Assembly (NCBI GenBank): GCA_026224875.1 | Contig: JAMFRU010000037.1 | Coordinates: forward strand, 31,402 to 95,401 | DNA: 64,000 bases | Origin: Acidocella sp. | GTDB taxonomy: Bacteria > Pseudomonadota > Alphaproteobacteria > Acetobacterales > Acetobacteraceae | Reading direction: 5' to 3' | In this document: one piece after another, positions 4,744 to 26,072 of the stretch | Layout of the letters: the number at the start of each line of letters is the position of its first letter | Position numbering within the stretch: the first letter of the stretch is position 1 | Notes under the pieces: model-generated | What the model was told of the DNA's origin: nothing | Database searches by the model: none | What the model saw: only the letters and a program-made list of their open reading frames with translations | Position numbers and translations under genes: made by a program

Positions 4744-5028
4744 TTGGAGTTCACGCCAGAAAAACGCCGGAGTTCGGCCGAAGATTCGCTCTGGGCCGTC
4801 GTTGCCGTGGTCGGCCGCGTCATCCGAATCGCCGAGATTTTCCCCAGCCGCACCGCGGCCCTGCACGACCAGGCCTGGCGCGAAGCCCAGGTGCGCGCCT
4901 ACGCCTCGTTCCTTGAACGCTCAGGCCAGGCGCCCCCACGCTATATGATCAAGCCGATACGCAGAACCGAGCTGCCCAGGCAGTGGAAACCGCTCCCAGC
5001 TTTAGGATTCCTGAATGGAAATTTATAA
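4744..5028 (+). CDS. Hypothetical protein
   Basis: 94 aa ORF, TTG start, no recognised domain. Confidence 0.4.
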   Translation: MEFTPEKRRSSAEDSLWAVVAVVGRVIRIAEIFPSRTAALHDQAWREAQVRAYASFLERSGQAPPRYMIKPIRRTELPRQWKPLPALGFLNGNL

Positions 5029-5034
5029 GAAAAA

Positions 5035-5154
5035 GCAGCAGCTTTTTGAAAAAAGCTGCACCAAAAACTTTTGTCCCTGTGGGCGTAGGCGGGGCCAACG
5101 CCCACAGGGAGTAAAAGTTTTTTGTGTTACTTTTTTTCAAAAAAGTAACTGCTT
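5035..5154. repeat. REPIN-like compound inverted repeat (two inverted units, each with its own hairpin)
   Basis: aagcagcagctttttgaaaaaagctgcaccaaaaacttttgtccctgtgggcgt ... acgcccacagggagtaaaagttttttgtgttactttttttcaaaaaagtaactgctt. Confidence 0.75.
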
Positions 5155-6552
5155 ATGACTTTCCGCATCGAGCACGACGCGCTGGGCGATGTTGAAGTCG
5201 ACTCCGGCCGTCTCTGGGGCGCGCAGACGCAGCGTAGCCTTGAGAACTTCGTCATTGGGCGGCGCAATTACATTTGGGGCAGGGGGGTTATTCGCGCTTT
5301 TGGTATTTTGAAAAAAGCAGCGGCTTTGGCCAATCAGCAGCTGGGCCAGTTACCGGCGGAGAAAGTCAGCCTTATTGCCGCCGCCGCGCAGGAGGTTATC
5401 GACGGTAAATGGGATGGGGAATTCCCGTTGGTGGTGTTCCAGACCGGCTCGGGCACGCAGAGTAACATGAACGCCAACGAGGTTATCGCCAACCGCGCCA
5501 TTCAGATGGCGGGCGGGGTGCTGGGCAGTAAGAAACCCATCAATCCCAATGATGACGTCAATCACAGCCAATCCTCCAACGATACTTTCCCCACTGCCAT
5601 GCACATTGCCGCGGCCGAGGCTCTGCACCGGGAACTCTTCCCCGCCATTGAGCGCCTGGCCGGTATATTCCGCGCCAAGGAGGCAGCCTACGCCGATGTG
5701 GTGATGACCGGCCGCACCCATCTGCAGGACGCCACCCCCATTACCCTGGGCCAGGTTTTTTCCGGCTGGCTCGCCCAGCTCGAAGCTGCCCAGGAAGGCC
5801 TCCGCGCCACACTTCCGGGCCTGTACCAGCTCGCCATCGGCGGCACCGCCGTGGGTACCGGGCTGAATGCTCACCCCGATTTCGGCGCACAAGCCGCAAG
5901 CTATATCGCCCAGGAAACCGGGTTGCCGTTCCGCACCGCCGAGAATAAATTCGCCGCCCTCTCGGCGCATGATGCGTTGGTTTTCGCCTCAGGCGCGCTC
6001 CGTGTTCTCGCAGGCGCCGCCATGAAGATCGCCAACGATATGCGCTGGTACGCGTCGGGCCCGCGCACCGGTTTTGGCGAGCTTTTAATCCCCGAAAACG
6101 AACCCGGCTCCTCCATCATGCCCGGCAAAATCAACCCCACCCAATGCGAGGCGCTCACCATGGTCGCCGTGCAGGTTTTCGGCCTGGACCACGCCATCGC
6201 CTTCGCCGGCAGCCAAGGCAATTTCCAGCTCAACGTCTACAAGCCGGTCATGCTGCACGACTTCCTGGACGCCACCGAACTCCTATCCGAAGGGCTGCAA
6301 TCCTTTGCCACCCATTGCGCCGAAGGCATCGAGCCCGCGCGCGAAAAAATCGCCGAAAACCTCGCCAAAAACCTGATGCTGGTAACCGCGCTAAACCCGC
6401 ATATTGGCTACGAAACCTCCGCCAAAATCGCCCTGAAAGCGCATCGCGAAGGCCTTACTTTGCGTGAGTCCGCATTGGCCCTTGGGGTGGCCGAAAAAGA
6501 CTTCGACGCCTGGGTAAACCCCGAAGCCATGACCCGCCCCCTTGCTGAATAA
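5155..6552 (+). CDS. fumC: Fumarate hydratase class II
   Basis: 465 aa; '[12 protein letters not shown]', '[18 protein letters not shown]', '[17 protein letters not shown]' signatures. Confidence 0.97.
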
Positions 6553-10853: not shown

Positions 10854-10893
10854 CAAGCAGTACCTTTTTGTGAACAAAAAGCTGCTGCTCACT
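10854..10893. repeat. Single copy related to the 5035-5154 repeat family
   Basis: aagcagtacctttttgtgaacaaaaagctgctgct hairpin directly after the map stop codon. Confidence 0.45.
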
Positions 10894-20316: not shown

Positions 20317-23300
20317 ATGACGCAAGAAACCGCAAGTGAATTTCTCGCATCCTGGGAAAAGAATAAGGAAATCCTGCGTGATACCTATAGCCAGGAGCAG
20401 GAGCATGATGCCTGCGGTGTTGGCTTGGTGGCTGCGCTGGATGGCAAAAAACGCCGCGACGTCGTGCAGGCGGGTATCGATGCGTTGAAGGCTTTGTGGC
20501 ACCGCGGTGCTGTGGATGCGGACGGCAAGACCGGCGATGGTGCCGGCATCCATATCGAAATCCCACAGGATTTTTTCGCCGCCGAGGTGAAGCGCGGCGG
20601 TGACCGCCTGCGCGAAGGCCCGATTGCCGTCGGCATGGTGTTCCTGCCCAAGACCGATCTGGGCGCGCAGGAGCGCTGCCGCCAGATTGTCGAAACTGAG
20701 ATTCTGAGCTTTGGCTACCGCATCTATGGCTGGCGTCAGGTGCCCATCGACGTGTCCTGTATCGGCGAAAAAGCCAACGCCACCCGCCCAGAGATCGAAC
20801 AGATCATGCTGTGGAATTCGCGCGGCCTCTCGGAAGATGATTTTGAACGCGAATTATACATCATCCGCCGCAAGATCGAGAAAGCGGCCATCGAGGCGCA
20901 GATCTCGGAGCTGTATCTCTGCTCCTTCTCGTGTCGCTCCATCATCTACAAGGGCATGTTCCTCGCGGCCTCGCTCACGGATTTCTATCCCGATCTGCTG
21001 GACGAGCGTTTCGTCTCGCGCTTTGCCATCTATCACCAGCGCTATTCCACCAACACCTTCCCCACCTGGAAGCTGGCCCAGCCGTTCCGGATGCTCGCGC
21101 ATAACGGCGAGATCAACACCGTTGCCGGCAACATCAACTGGATGCAGAGCCATGAGACGCGCCTGGGCGCCGAAGGGCTCGACGAATTCCTCGATTACGT
21201 AAAACCCGTGGTACAGTCAGGCGGTTCCGATACCGCCGCACTCGATAACGTGTTCGAGCTGCTGGTGCGCGCCGGGCGCGATGCGCCGATGGCCAAGGCA
21301 CTGATGATCCCACCCTCCATCACCAACGACACCTCGATGCCCAAAGCGCATCGCGACATGTTCCATTATTGCAACGCCGTGATGGAGCCCTGGGATGGGC
21401 CGGCCGCGGTGGCCGCGACCGATGGCCGCTACGTGATCGCCGGGCTTGACCGTAACGGTCTGCGGCCTTTGCGTTATGCCATCACCAGGCAGAAAATGCT
21501 GATTGTCGGCTCGGAAACGGGCATGGTGAAGTTCGATGAGGAAGATGTCGTCGAGAAAGGTGCGGTCGGCCCCGGCCAGACCATCGCCGTGGATCTCGAT
21601 GAGCTGAAATTCTACAACGACACCGAATTGAAAGACATGCTGGCCGCGCGCCAGGATTATGGCGCCTGGGTCAAGCGCATCACGGTGATCGACCATATCA
21701 TCAAAACCGACGCGCCGGAGCCGGTGCGGCTCGATGCCGATGGCCTGCGCCGCCGCCAGCTCGCGGTGGGCTTCACCATCGAGGATATGGAGATGCTGCT
21801 CCACCCGATGGTGGCCGATGCGCAGGAGGCCACGGGTTCGATGGGCGATGACGCCCCGCTCGCCGTGCTGTCGGGCAAATACCGGGGCCTGCACCATTAT
21901 TTCCGCCAGAGTTTTTCCCAGGTCACCAACCCGGCGATCGATTCACTGCGCGAAACCCGCGTGATGAGCCTCAAAACCCGGCTCGGCAATCTCGGCAACG
22001 TGCTTGATGAGGACGAGGACCAGTGCGATCTGTTGCAGCTGGACTCGCCGGTTTTGTCCACAGCCGAATTCGAGGCGATGCGCAAAACCATGGGTGATGC
22101 CGCCTGCGTGGTTGACTGCACGTTCAAGGTTGCGAACGGGGAGGGCGGTTTGCGCCGCTCCATCGAACGAATCCGCCGCGAGGCCGAAGAGGGCGTGCGC
22201 GCCGGCTGCACGCATGTTATTCTCACCGATGAAGCGATGAGCCCCGAGCGCGCGCCTATCCCGATGATCCTCGCCACGGGTGCGGTACACACGCATCTCG
22301 TCCGCCAGTCTCTGCGTACGTTTACCTCGCTCAACGTGCGTGCGGCTGAGTGCCTGGATGTGCATTATTACGCCGTGCTGGTCGGCTCGGGTGCCACCAC
22401 CGTCAACGCCTATCTGGCACAGGAAAGCATCGCGGACCGCCATGCGCGTGGGCTTTTTGCCAAGCTGTCCTTGAAGGAATGCGTTTACCGCTACAAAAAA
22501 GCGGTGGACAAAGGCCTGCTCAAAGTGATGTCGAAGCTCGGTATCTCGGTCATCTCCTCCTATCGCGGGGGTTACAACTTCGAAGCCATCGGCCTGTCAC
22601 GCGCGCTTGTGGGAGAATTCTTCCCCGGCATGCCCTCGCGCATTTCCGGCATCGGCCTGCCCGGCATCGCGCATATGGTGCTGGAGCTGCATAAATCCGC
22701 CTGGAGCGGTAATGTCGTGCCGCTGGAAATCGGCGGCCAGTACCGGCTGCGGCGCAATGGCGGCGAGACGCATGCGTTCGACAATAACGCCATCCATCTG
22801 CTGCAAACCGCGGTGGGGACCAACAGCTACAAGGCGTATAAAAAATACTCCGACATGGTGCGCAAGCAAAAGCCGGTAGCGTTGCGCGACCTACTGGATT
22901 TCCGCGCCGATGCCTTCACCTCCATCTCGGTCGATGAGGTCGAGAGCATCACCGAAATCCGGAAACGCCTGCTTGCACCTGGCATTTCTCTGGGTGCCCT
23001 GAGCCCGGAAGCACATGAGACGCTCTCCATTGCAATGAACCGCATCGGCGCGCGTTCGGACTCTGGCGAAGGTGGCGAAGATCCCGCCCGTGCGGAACCG
23101 CGTGCCAATGGCGATAACGCGTCCTCCGCCATCAAGCAGATCGCCTCGGGGCGTTTCGGTGTCACCGCTGAATACCTCAACGATTGCCGTGAAATCGAGA
23201 TCAAGGTCGCGCAGGGTGCCAAGCCGGGTGAGGGCGGGCAGCTGCCCGGCTTTAAGGTCACAGAGCTGATCGCCAAACTGCGCCATGCCACGCCGGGGGT

Positions 23301-25984: not shown

Positions 25985-26072
25985 GAAGAAAAAATCTGCT
26001 GCTTTTTGAAAAAGACTGCTTCGCGCGCTCGAACCAATGGCGCGCGCTGCGCAGACCAAAAACTTTTTGTGG
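25985..26072. repeat. Single-arm copy related to the 5035-5154 repeat family
   Basis: aatctgctgctttttgaaaaagactgc...gcagaccaaaaactttttg directly after the gst stop; compare agcagctttttgaaaaaagctgcaccaaaaactttt at 5037. Confidence 0.6.

Follow-up and report, generated by a model that had tools for sequence, protein, structure and literature searches.

The palindrome before fumC

We asked what kind of sequence occupies the space before the fumC gene in a 64,000-nt stretch of Acidocella DNA (the window), and whether this sequence belongs to its neighbouring genes or has come to them from elsewhere. A sequence-only reading had described a REPIN-like double inverted repeat at 5035-5154, with one hairpin in each arm. 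The double inverted repeat is real: each arm has its own hairpin, and the stems, which are unlike between the arms, are each perfectly paired. The right edge stood as proposed. The left edge lies 2 nt further out, and the element is a 122-bp inverted repeat at 5033-5154 between two co-directional genes (Table 1). Both arm hairpins were confirmed; the middle, a long third hairpin, had been missed. The element folds into a three-hairpin cloverleaf closed by AAGCAG/CTGCTT. As single-strand DNA its minimum free energy is -46.3 kcal/mol compared with a shuffle mean of -17.8 (z = -10.2; 0 of 200 shuffles were equally stable). An Rfam search of the window returned tRNA only.

The left edge is 4 nt past the stop codon of the small upstream ORF; the right edge abuts the fumC start codon. 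TAAG at 5026-5029 precedes the left AAGCAG and corresponds to an outer AAG(N1-4) motif found at most element ends. Because this extra AAG, 1-4 nt outside AAGCAG, is present at ends distant from stop codons as well, it belongs to the element or to its target. Hairpin 2 stands directly before the fumC ATG, and no obvious Shine-Dalgarno sequence was seen there (window 5126-5160). Since the element abuts the ATG, fumC appears to be without one.

Table 1. Positions of the fumC element, its parts, neighbouring genes and related units in the window.
Feature	Position	Strand	Remarks
Upstream ORF, 94 aa	4744..5028	+	conserved C-terminus KPIRRTELPRQWKPLPALGFLNGNL; ends in TAA at the left edge of the element; in relatives without the element it overlaps or abuts fumC
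Complete three-hairpin element, AAGCAG...CTGCTT	5033..5154	none	related copies elsewhere
Left terminal motif AAGCAG	5033..5038	none	pairs with 5149-5154
Arm 1 hairpin GCAGCTTTTTGAAAAAAGCTGC	5038..5059	+	GCAGC-TTTTTGAAAAAA-GCTGC
Connector ACCAAAAACTTTTG	5060..5073	+	contains AAAACTTT, the site of IS1595-type cassettes in other copies
Central palindrome	5063..5121	none	interchangeable centre module; arms 5063-5090 / 5094-5121; core TCCCTGTGGGCGT...ACGCCCACAGGGA
Arm 2 hairpin GTTACTTTTTTTCAAAAAAGTAAC	5126..5149	+	GTTAC-TTTTTTTCAAAAAA-GTAAC
Right terminal motif CTGCTT	5149..5154	none	abuts fumC start codon (ATG at 5155)
fumC	5155..6552	+	Lyase_1 and FumaraseC_C domains
Collapsed single-hairpin relative after map	10855..10889	none	5' half of a TACC arm and 3' half of a CAGC arm
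Variant half-unit after gst	25985..26068	none	extra GCGCGC(TCGAACCAATG)GCGCGC hairpin and CCAAAAACTTTT connector

Copy number and distribution

The single units noted earlier after map and gst proved to be genuine relatives of the fumC element, and the gst-type half-unit recurs in about 17 copies in the genome from which the window was taken (G000, a 3.87-Mb draft; below, the own genome). The further copies predicted by the sequence-only reading were also found. Taking together BLAST with the fumC element, BLAST with the gst unit and a loose pattern, the own genome has about 79 distinct related loci. The strict pattern alone gave 56 matches there and 0 with a reversed control. A search of 61 genomes gave 204, 56, 37, 33 and 26 pattern matches in five high-copy species of one genus. 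The rest of the genus had 0-2 matches each, with 1-2 copies in six further species, and the pattern was absent from 24 other families in this search. The carriers with names, among them bog_899, NGEE_A and Umea2, are bins of uncultured bacteria whose NCBI titles read Acetobacteraceae or Rhodospirillales. Among 385 genomes of the class, a stricter arm pattern matched in the own genome only, and the AAGCAG-ended form appears to be confined to the source genus.

Known plasmids contained no full copy of the element. Komagataeibacter and Novacetimonas plasmids have only a hairpin-plus-connector piece of 31-32 nt, which in Novacetimonas is a head-to-head doublet; the match in Staphylococcus plasmids is a 34-nt low-complexity one. 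The hairpin element was also seen in six stretches of five IMG/VR contigs (L204-L209), which are listed there as viral and may be bacterial DNA with a prophage. Many relatives have a conserved 35-bp unit, which was considered as an ancient functional element and rejected; six loci share the surrounding stretch beside a putative DUF736-like ORF. One half-unit lies in a stretch that at least six species have conserved (L247, L252, L253, L255, L256, L259), probably a plasmid or ICE. By sequence resemblance the ORFs beside the half-unit in L247 would be DUF736-like and a MerR-type regulator.

Pairing is kept while stems, arms and centres vary

Next, the question whether the copies preserve pairing when their sequence changes was examined. 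For this purpose 185 unique arms were gathered without demanding pairing. Stem covariation was strong: fully paired at the three variable positions were 164 of them, and pairing was kept when stems changed, as the sequence-only reading had supposed. Eleven distinct fully paired stem types were present, among them TTA/TAA, CCG/CGG, CAG/CTG, TCC/GGA and TAC/GTA, compared with 1.9 on average and 8 at most in 2,000 shuffles of types. RNAalifold with 18 full elements reported two-sided changes in 17 of 34 consensus pairs. Related sequences inflate such pair-change counts; therefore, covariation is more safely judged by how many distinct stem types occur. Template switching between the halves of a hairpin can also maintain covarying palindromes. 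Accordingly, covariation alone is no proof of selection for structure.

The stem type tracks loop and connector: CAG occurs with GA and ACC, TAC with GTGAAC and CC, CCG with TGTA and GC. Because these parts go together, the arms behave as modules. The centres are unrelated palindromic families (CCTGTGGGCGTTGGC in the own genome, GGGCCACAG...TGTGACTCCATGGG in G013, CCGGCTTTTGAGTGGCC in the bog_899 bin and GGGGACACGGGGTGTGAGTCC in G033). Two further palindromes were seen in the course of this reading. One, of the CGCGTCCCGATGACGAAG...CTTCGTCATCGGGACGCG type, breaks the side arms at L010 (about 1600-1655), L011 (about 1445-1505) and L090 (near the element) and apparently is a nested repeat. The other is an unrelated palindromic repeat of about 80 bp, GTCATCCCCGCGAAAGCGGGGAT..., present in L025 and L028 of the own genome and with about 25-30 matches across many G013 contigs.

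Copies lie at gene ends

Gene orientations were taken from ORFs called with a codon model built in this analysis. The own copies with two flanking genes (n = 51) were in 33 cases between convergent, in 17 between tandem and in one between divergent genes; the convergent share exceeds the window baseline of 9 of 57 (about 16%; p = 5e-15). In the named relatives the convergent numbers were 42 of 133 versus 102 of 605. At 48 of 84 ends which face the 3' end of a gene, the hairpin was 0-19 nt from the stop codon. A role as terminator or at the mRNA end is plausible at convergent sites. A terminator-like score was obtained for arm 1, on the minus strand only, with the tail TGCTTTTTCT. A T-run after the stem is missing in most other arm types (TACC arms end in TGCTTAACC).

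Orthologous sites are empty, occupied or differently occupied

Occupancy was compared between species at flank identities of about 75-86%, and empty orthologous sites, which bear on excision or insertion of the doublet, were seen between species only. In nearly all relatives the fumC site is empty; the genes overlap (TGATG) or have a short stretch of unrelated sequence between them. In G013 the site is taken by a half-element. Therefore, the fumC element was inserted, and the insertion parts an upstream ORF and fumC which overlap in relatives. Seventeen further own sites were located in G013 regardless of whether an element was present, some of the element-free ones by one flank only. An element or half-element was present at four of them and a remnant at two (AAGCGGCTACTTTTT, AGCAGCTACTTTTT); the other eleven had neither. 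With fumC counted, 7 of 18 own sites are occupied or remnant-bearing in G013.

Where the own genome and a relative at about 81% identity both have an element at a site, the arms or the centres differ. The L005 elements agree in the left arm and have unrelated centres, and at L006 the two left arms belong to different types. In two pairs picked for having elements, and for this reason excluded from the occupancy count, the whole element is inverted and has another centre (L009/L111) or single arms are of different types (L065/L105). Judged from these differences, copies can exchange both their arms and their central palindromes. The differences could stem either from independent re-insertion at a favoured spot or from recombination through the connectors. 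A direct repeat around 32 full elements was not found; no offset exceeded the shuffles, i.e. there was no consistent target duplication.

No Y1 transposase was detected

The REPIN reading called for a RAYT (Y1) gene. This part was not supported. The PF01797 (Y1_Tnp) profile had 0 matches in the own genome and in the four other high-copy genomes (G000, G004, G013, G023, G028; 83-98% complete, 26-204 pattern matches each), while the positive controls matched and the family was detected in five control genomes. Among the relatives searched, Y1 was matched only twice and weakly, in G009 and G011, and each of these genomes has one pattern copy. The loci examined contained no autonomous copy; between the facing arms of neighbouring elements only ordinary genes were present. 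AAGCA-G forms the foot, with no GTAG or GT(A/G)G head, both in the arms defined by the pattern and in the full elements that were read, and an unpaired CGTC tag at one end was absent from the elements read. GTAG and CGTC are the defining tags of known REP superfamilies (PMC3733652), the GT(A/G)G head being at the foot of the REP hairpin (PMC2817692, PMC3733652), and a survey of tagged REPs has Acetobacteraceae among the families without CGTC repeats (PMC3733652). What remains of the earlier classification is a dispersed, intergenic, structure-conserved pair of inverted hairpins with single-unit relatives, i.e. two palindromic units which are inverted, dispersed and extragenic as in REPINs; the RAYT partner and the known tags have to be dropped. 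Because RAYT and tag were searched for and were absent, the family is not a REPIN or BIME member as defined, and the REPIN/RAYT reading is valid as an analogy only. Integron attC sites were considered as well and rejected; the elements read had no attC core sites and the copies are dispersed.

How the palindromes may have spread

With a probability of roughly two in three, we read these repeats as a family of mobile, non-autonomous palindromes which is specific to its lineage and behaves like REPIN/BIME elements. Its unit would be a half-element consisting of the AAGCAG foot, a 10-bp hairpin with a stem free to change as long as it is paired, and the CAAAAACTTTT connector. The 120-bp element would be two such halves, inverted around a third palindrome. 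Spread may have occurred by copying into new gene-end sites without leaving a target duplication, most simply via a folded single strand and an enzyme acting in trans that has since been lost or is unrecognised. Survivors would be those next to stop codons, where an insertion is harmless. Arms and centres may be swapped between copies by recombination through common connectors or by re-insertion, and copies would decay to half-units and one-hairpin remnants. Against this reading stand that no enzyme which would mobilise the family was identified, that the loci examined contained no autonomous copy, that mobility is read from comparisons between species, and that the genomes are draft metagenome bins, with palindromes badly assembled (NN stands at several centres).

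Possibly, if doubtfully, the repeats are instead functional gene-end structures, bidirectional terminators or 3'-end mRNA stabilisers under selection, which covary since the RNA hairpin matters. The strong preference for convergent gene ends and for the neighbourhood of stop codons would fit, as would the terminator-like arm 1 and the ordinary GC-hairpin, terminator-like sequences which other species have at some of the same sites (L005 in G021, L008 in G033 and G013, L002 in G033). However, most arm types lack the T-run, many orthologous sites are without any copy, and the fumC element lies between co-directional genes with its terminator-like arm facing the wrong way.

Two conventional mobile elements are less probable. 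In a classical REPIN population the driving RAYT would have been lost recently or lie in a missing part of the assembly. The inverted hairpin pair, the single units, the gene-end bias and the lack of target duplication agree with this (PMC3116915, PMC3733652). Yet PF01797 was unmatched in all five high-copy genomes despite 83-98% completeness, the relatives' two Y1 matches are in single-copy genomes, and GTAG/GTGG head and CGTC tag are both absent, which makes it improbable. An ordinary MITE of a DDE transposon with long terminal inverted repeats is already disfavoured and very improbable. It would account for inverted termini of about 41 bp, multiple copies and no coding capacity, but not for the absence of a consistent target-site duplication in the 32 full elements or for centres which are unrelated palindromes and not one deleted transposon body; further, no insertion sequence with the ends of the element was present in the loci examined.

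IS1595-type cassettes enter the connector

A segment bounded by the inverted repeats GGYAAYWATATACTTGRCTAAGT splits the connector of several copies in G000, G013 and G034. Eighteen such cassette units of 307-2,445 bp were read with both ends. An exact direct repeat of at least 8 bp flanks 13 of them, one of 7 bp another; ten are at AAAACTTT or AAAGTTTT. In G010 an IS1595-family element (C33 107618-110062; L375 219-2663) has the cassette ends with one base different (GGTAATAATATACTTGACTCAGT), a transposase gene with the domains PF12762 and PF12760, further cargo ORFs and a 9-bp direct repeat, AAGTCAGTG. The ends in common with an IS1595 transposase element and the 8-bp target duplication identify IS1595-type passenger cassettes, and such single-gene cassettes preferentially target the AAAACTTT connector. 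PF12762 was not found in G000, and the passenger genes had no Pfam and no meaningful NCBIfam match. Passenger-carrying cassettes devoid of a transposase are known from IS families. From the IS1595-type ends, the one transposase-bearing unit and passengers without family match we conclude that the connector cassettes are of this kind; what makes them of interest is the preference for the connector of a palindrome and the tandem stack.

This stack, on contig C35 of the own genome (about 21,038-22,815; L046 1567-2527 into L352 2185-2992), lies inside a variant hairpin element and consists of three different cassettes of 307, 646 and 808 bp with IS1595-type ends, with AAAACTTT or what is left of it between them. 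The row probably arose because every insertion re-forms its own target site, a mechanism that would explain the single array seen. Expectedly, as the cassettes differ, TRF reported no tandem repeat here. Tentatively, at slightly less than even odds, the palindromes may generally serve as dispersed landing pads, in which cassettes enter AAAACTTT, recreate the target as an 8-bp duplication and stack. If so, they would constitute an integrase-free route to arrays of orphan-gene cassettes. The insertions suggest how a repeat can gather foreign genes at harmless gene-end sites.

Relation to known palindromic repeats

In carriers labelled Acetobacteraceae or Rhodospirillales, structure-conserved palindromes number from tens to hundreds, and no RAYT was detected. 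Either another enzyme can amplify REP-like elements or homologous exchange can sustain a population after its enzyme was lost. Since arms and centres differ at fixed sites, the exchange of modules between dispersed repeats can be tested directly. The palindromes are a new mosaic, REP/BIME-like family, probably mobile and of unusual modularity.

A survey of REP sequences as targets of insertion sequences reports the IS3 and IS110 families and has no mention of IS1595 (PMC1525189). Here as there insertion elements pick a palindrome, but the inserts are IS1595-type passenger cassettes at the AAAACTTT connector. With the CGTC-tagged REPs of Alphaproteobacteria (PMC3733652) the family has in common gene-end palindromes, convergent and tandem, and no dedicated transposase; the CGTC tag is missing. 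Bacterial interspersed mosaic elements (BIMEs) are likewise mosaics of hairpins in alternating orientation joined by short connectors, yet their sequences, units and connectors are others, and the element described here normally is one inverted pair plus a centre. The likeness to REPINs and RAYT-associated REPs (PMC3116915, PMC2817692) extends to the intergenic, structure-conserved inverted hairpin pair, singlets beside doublets and lineage-specific amplification. Unlike these, the family has no detected Y1/RAYT, an AAGCA foot in place of GT(A/G)G, and A/T-rich stem tops. Finally, a third palindrome of interchangeable sequence stands at the centre of its elements, a feature by which classical REPINs are not defined.
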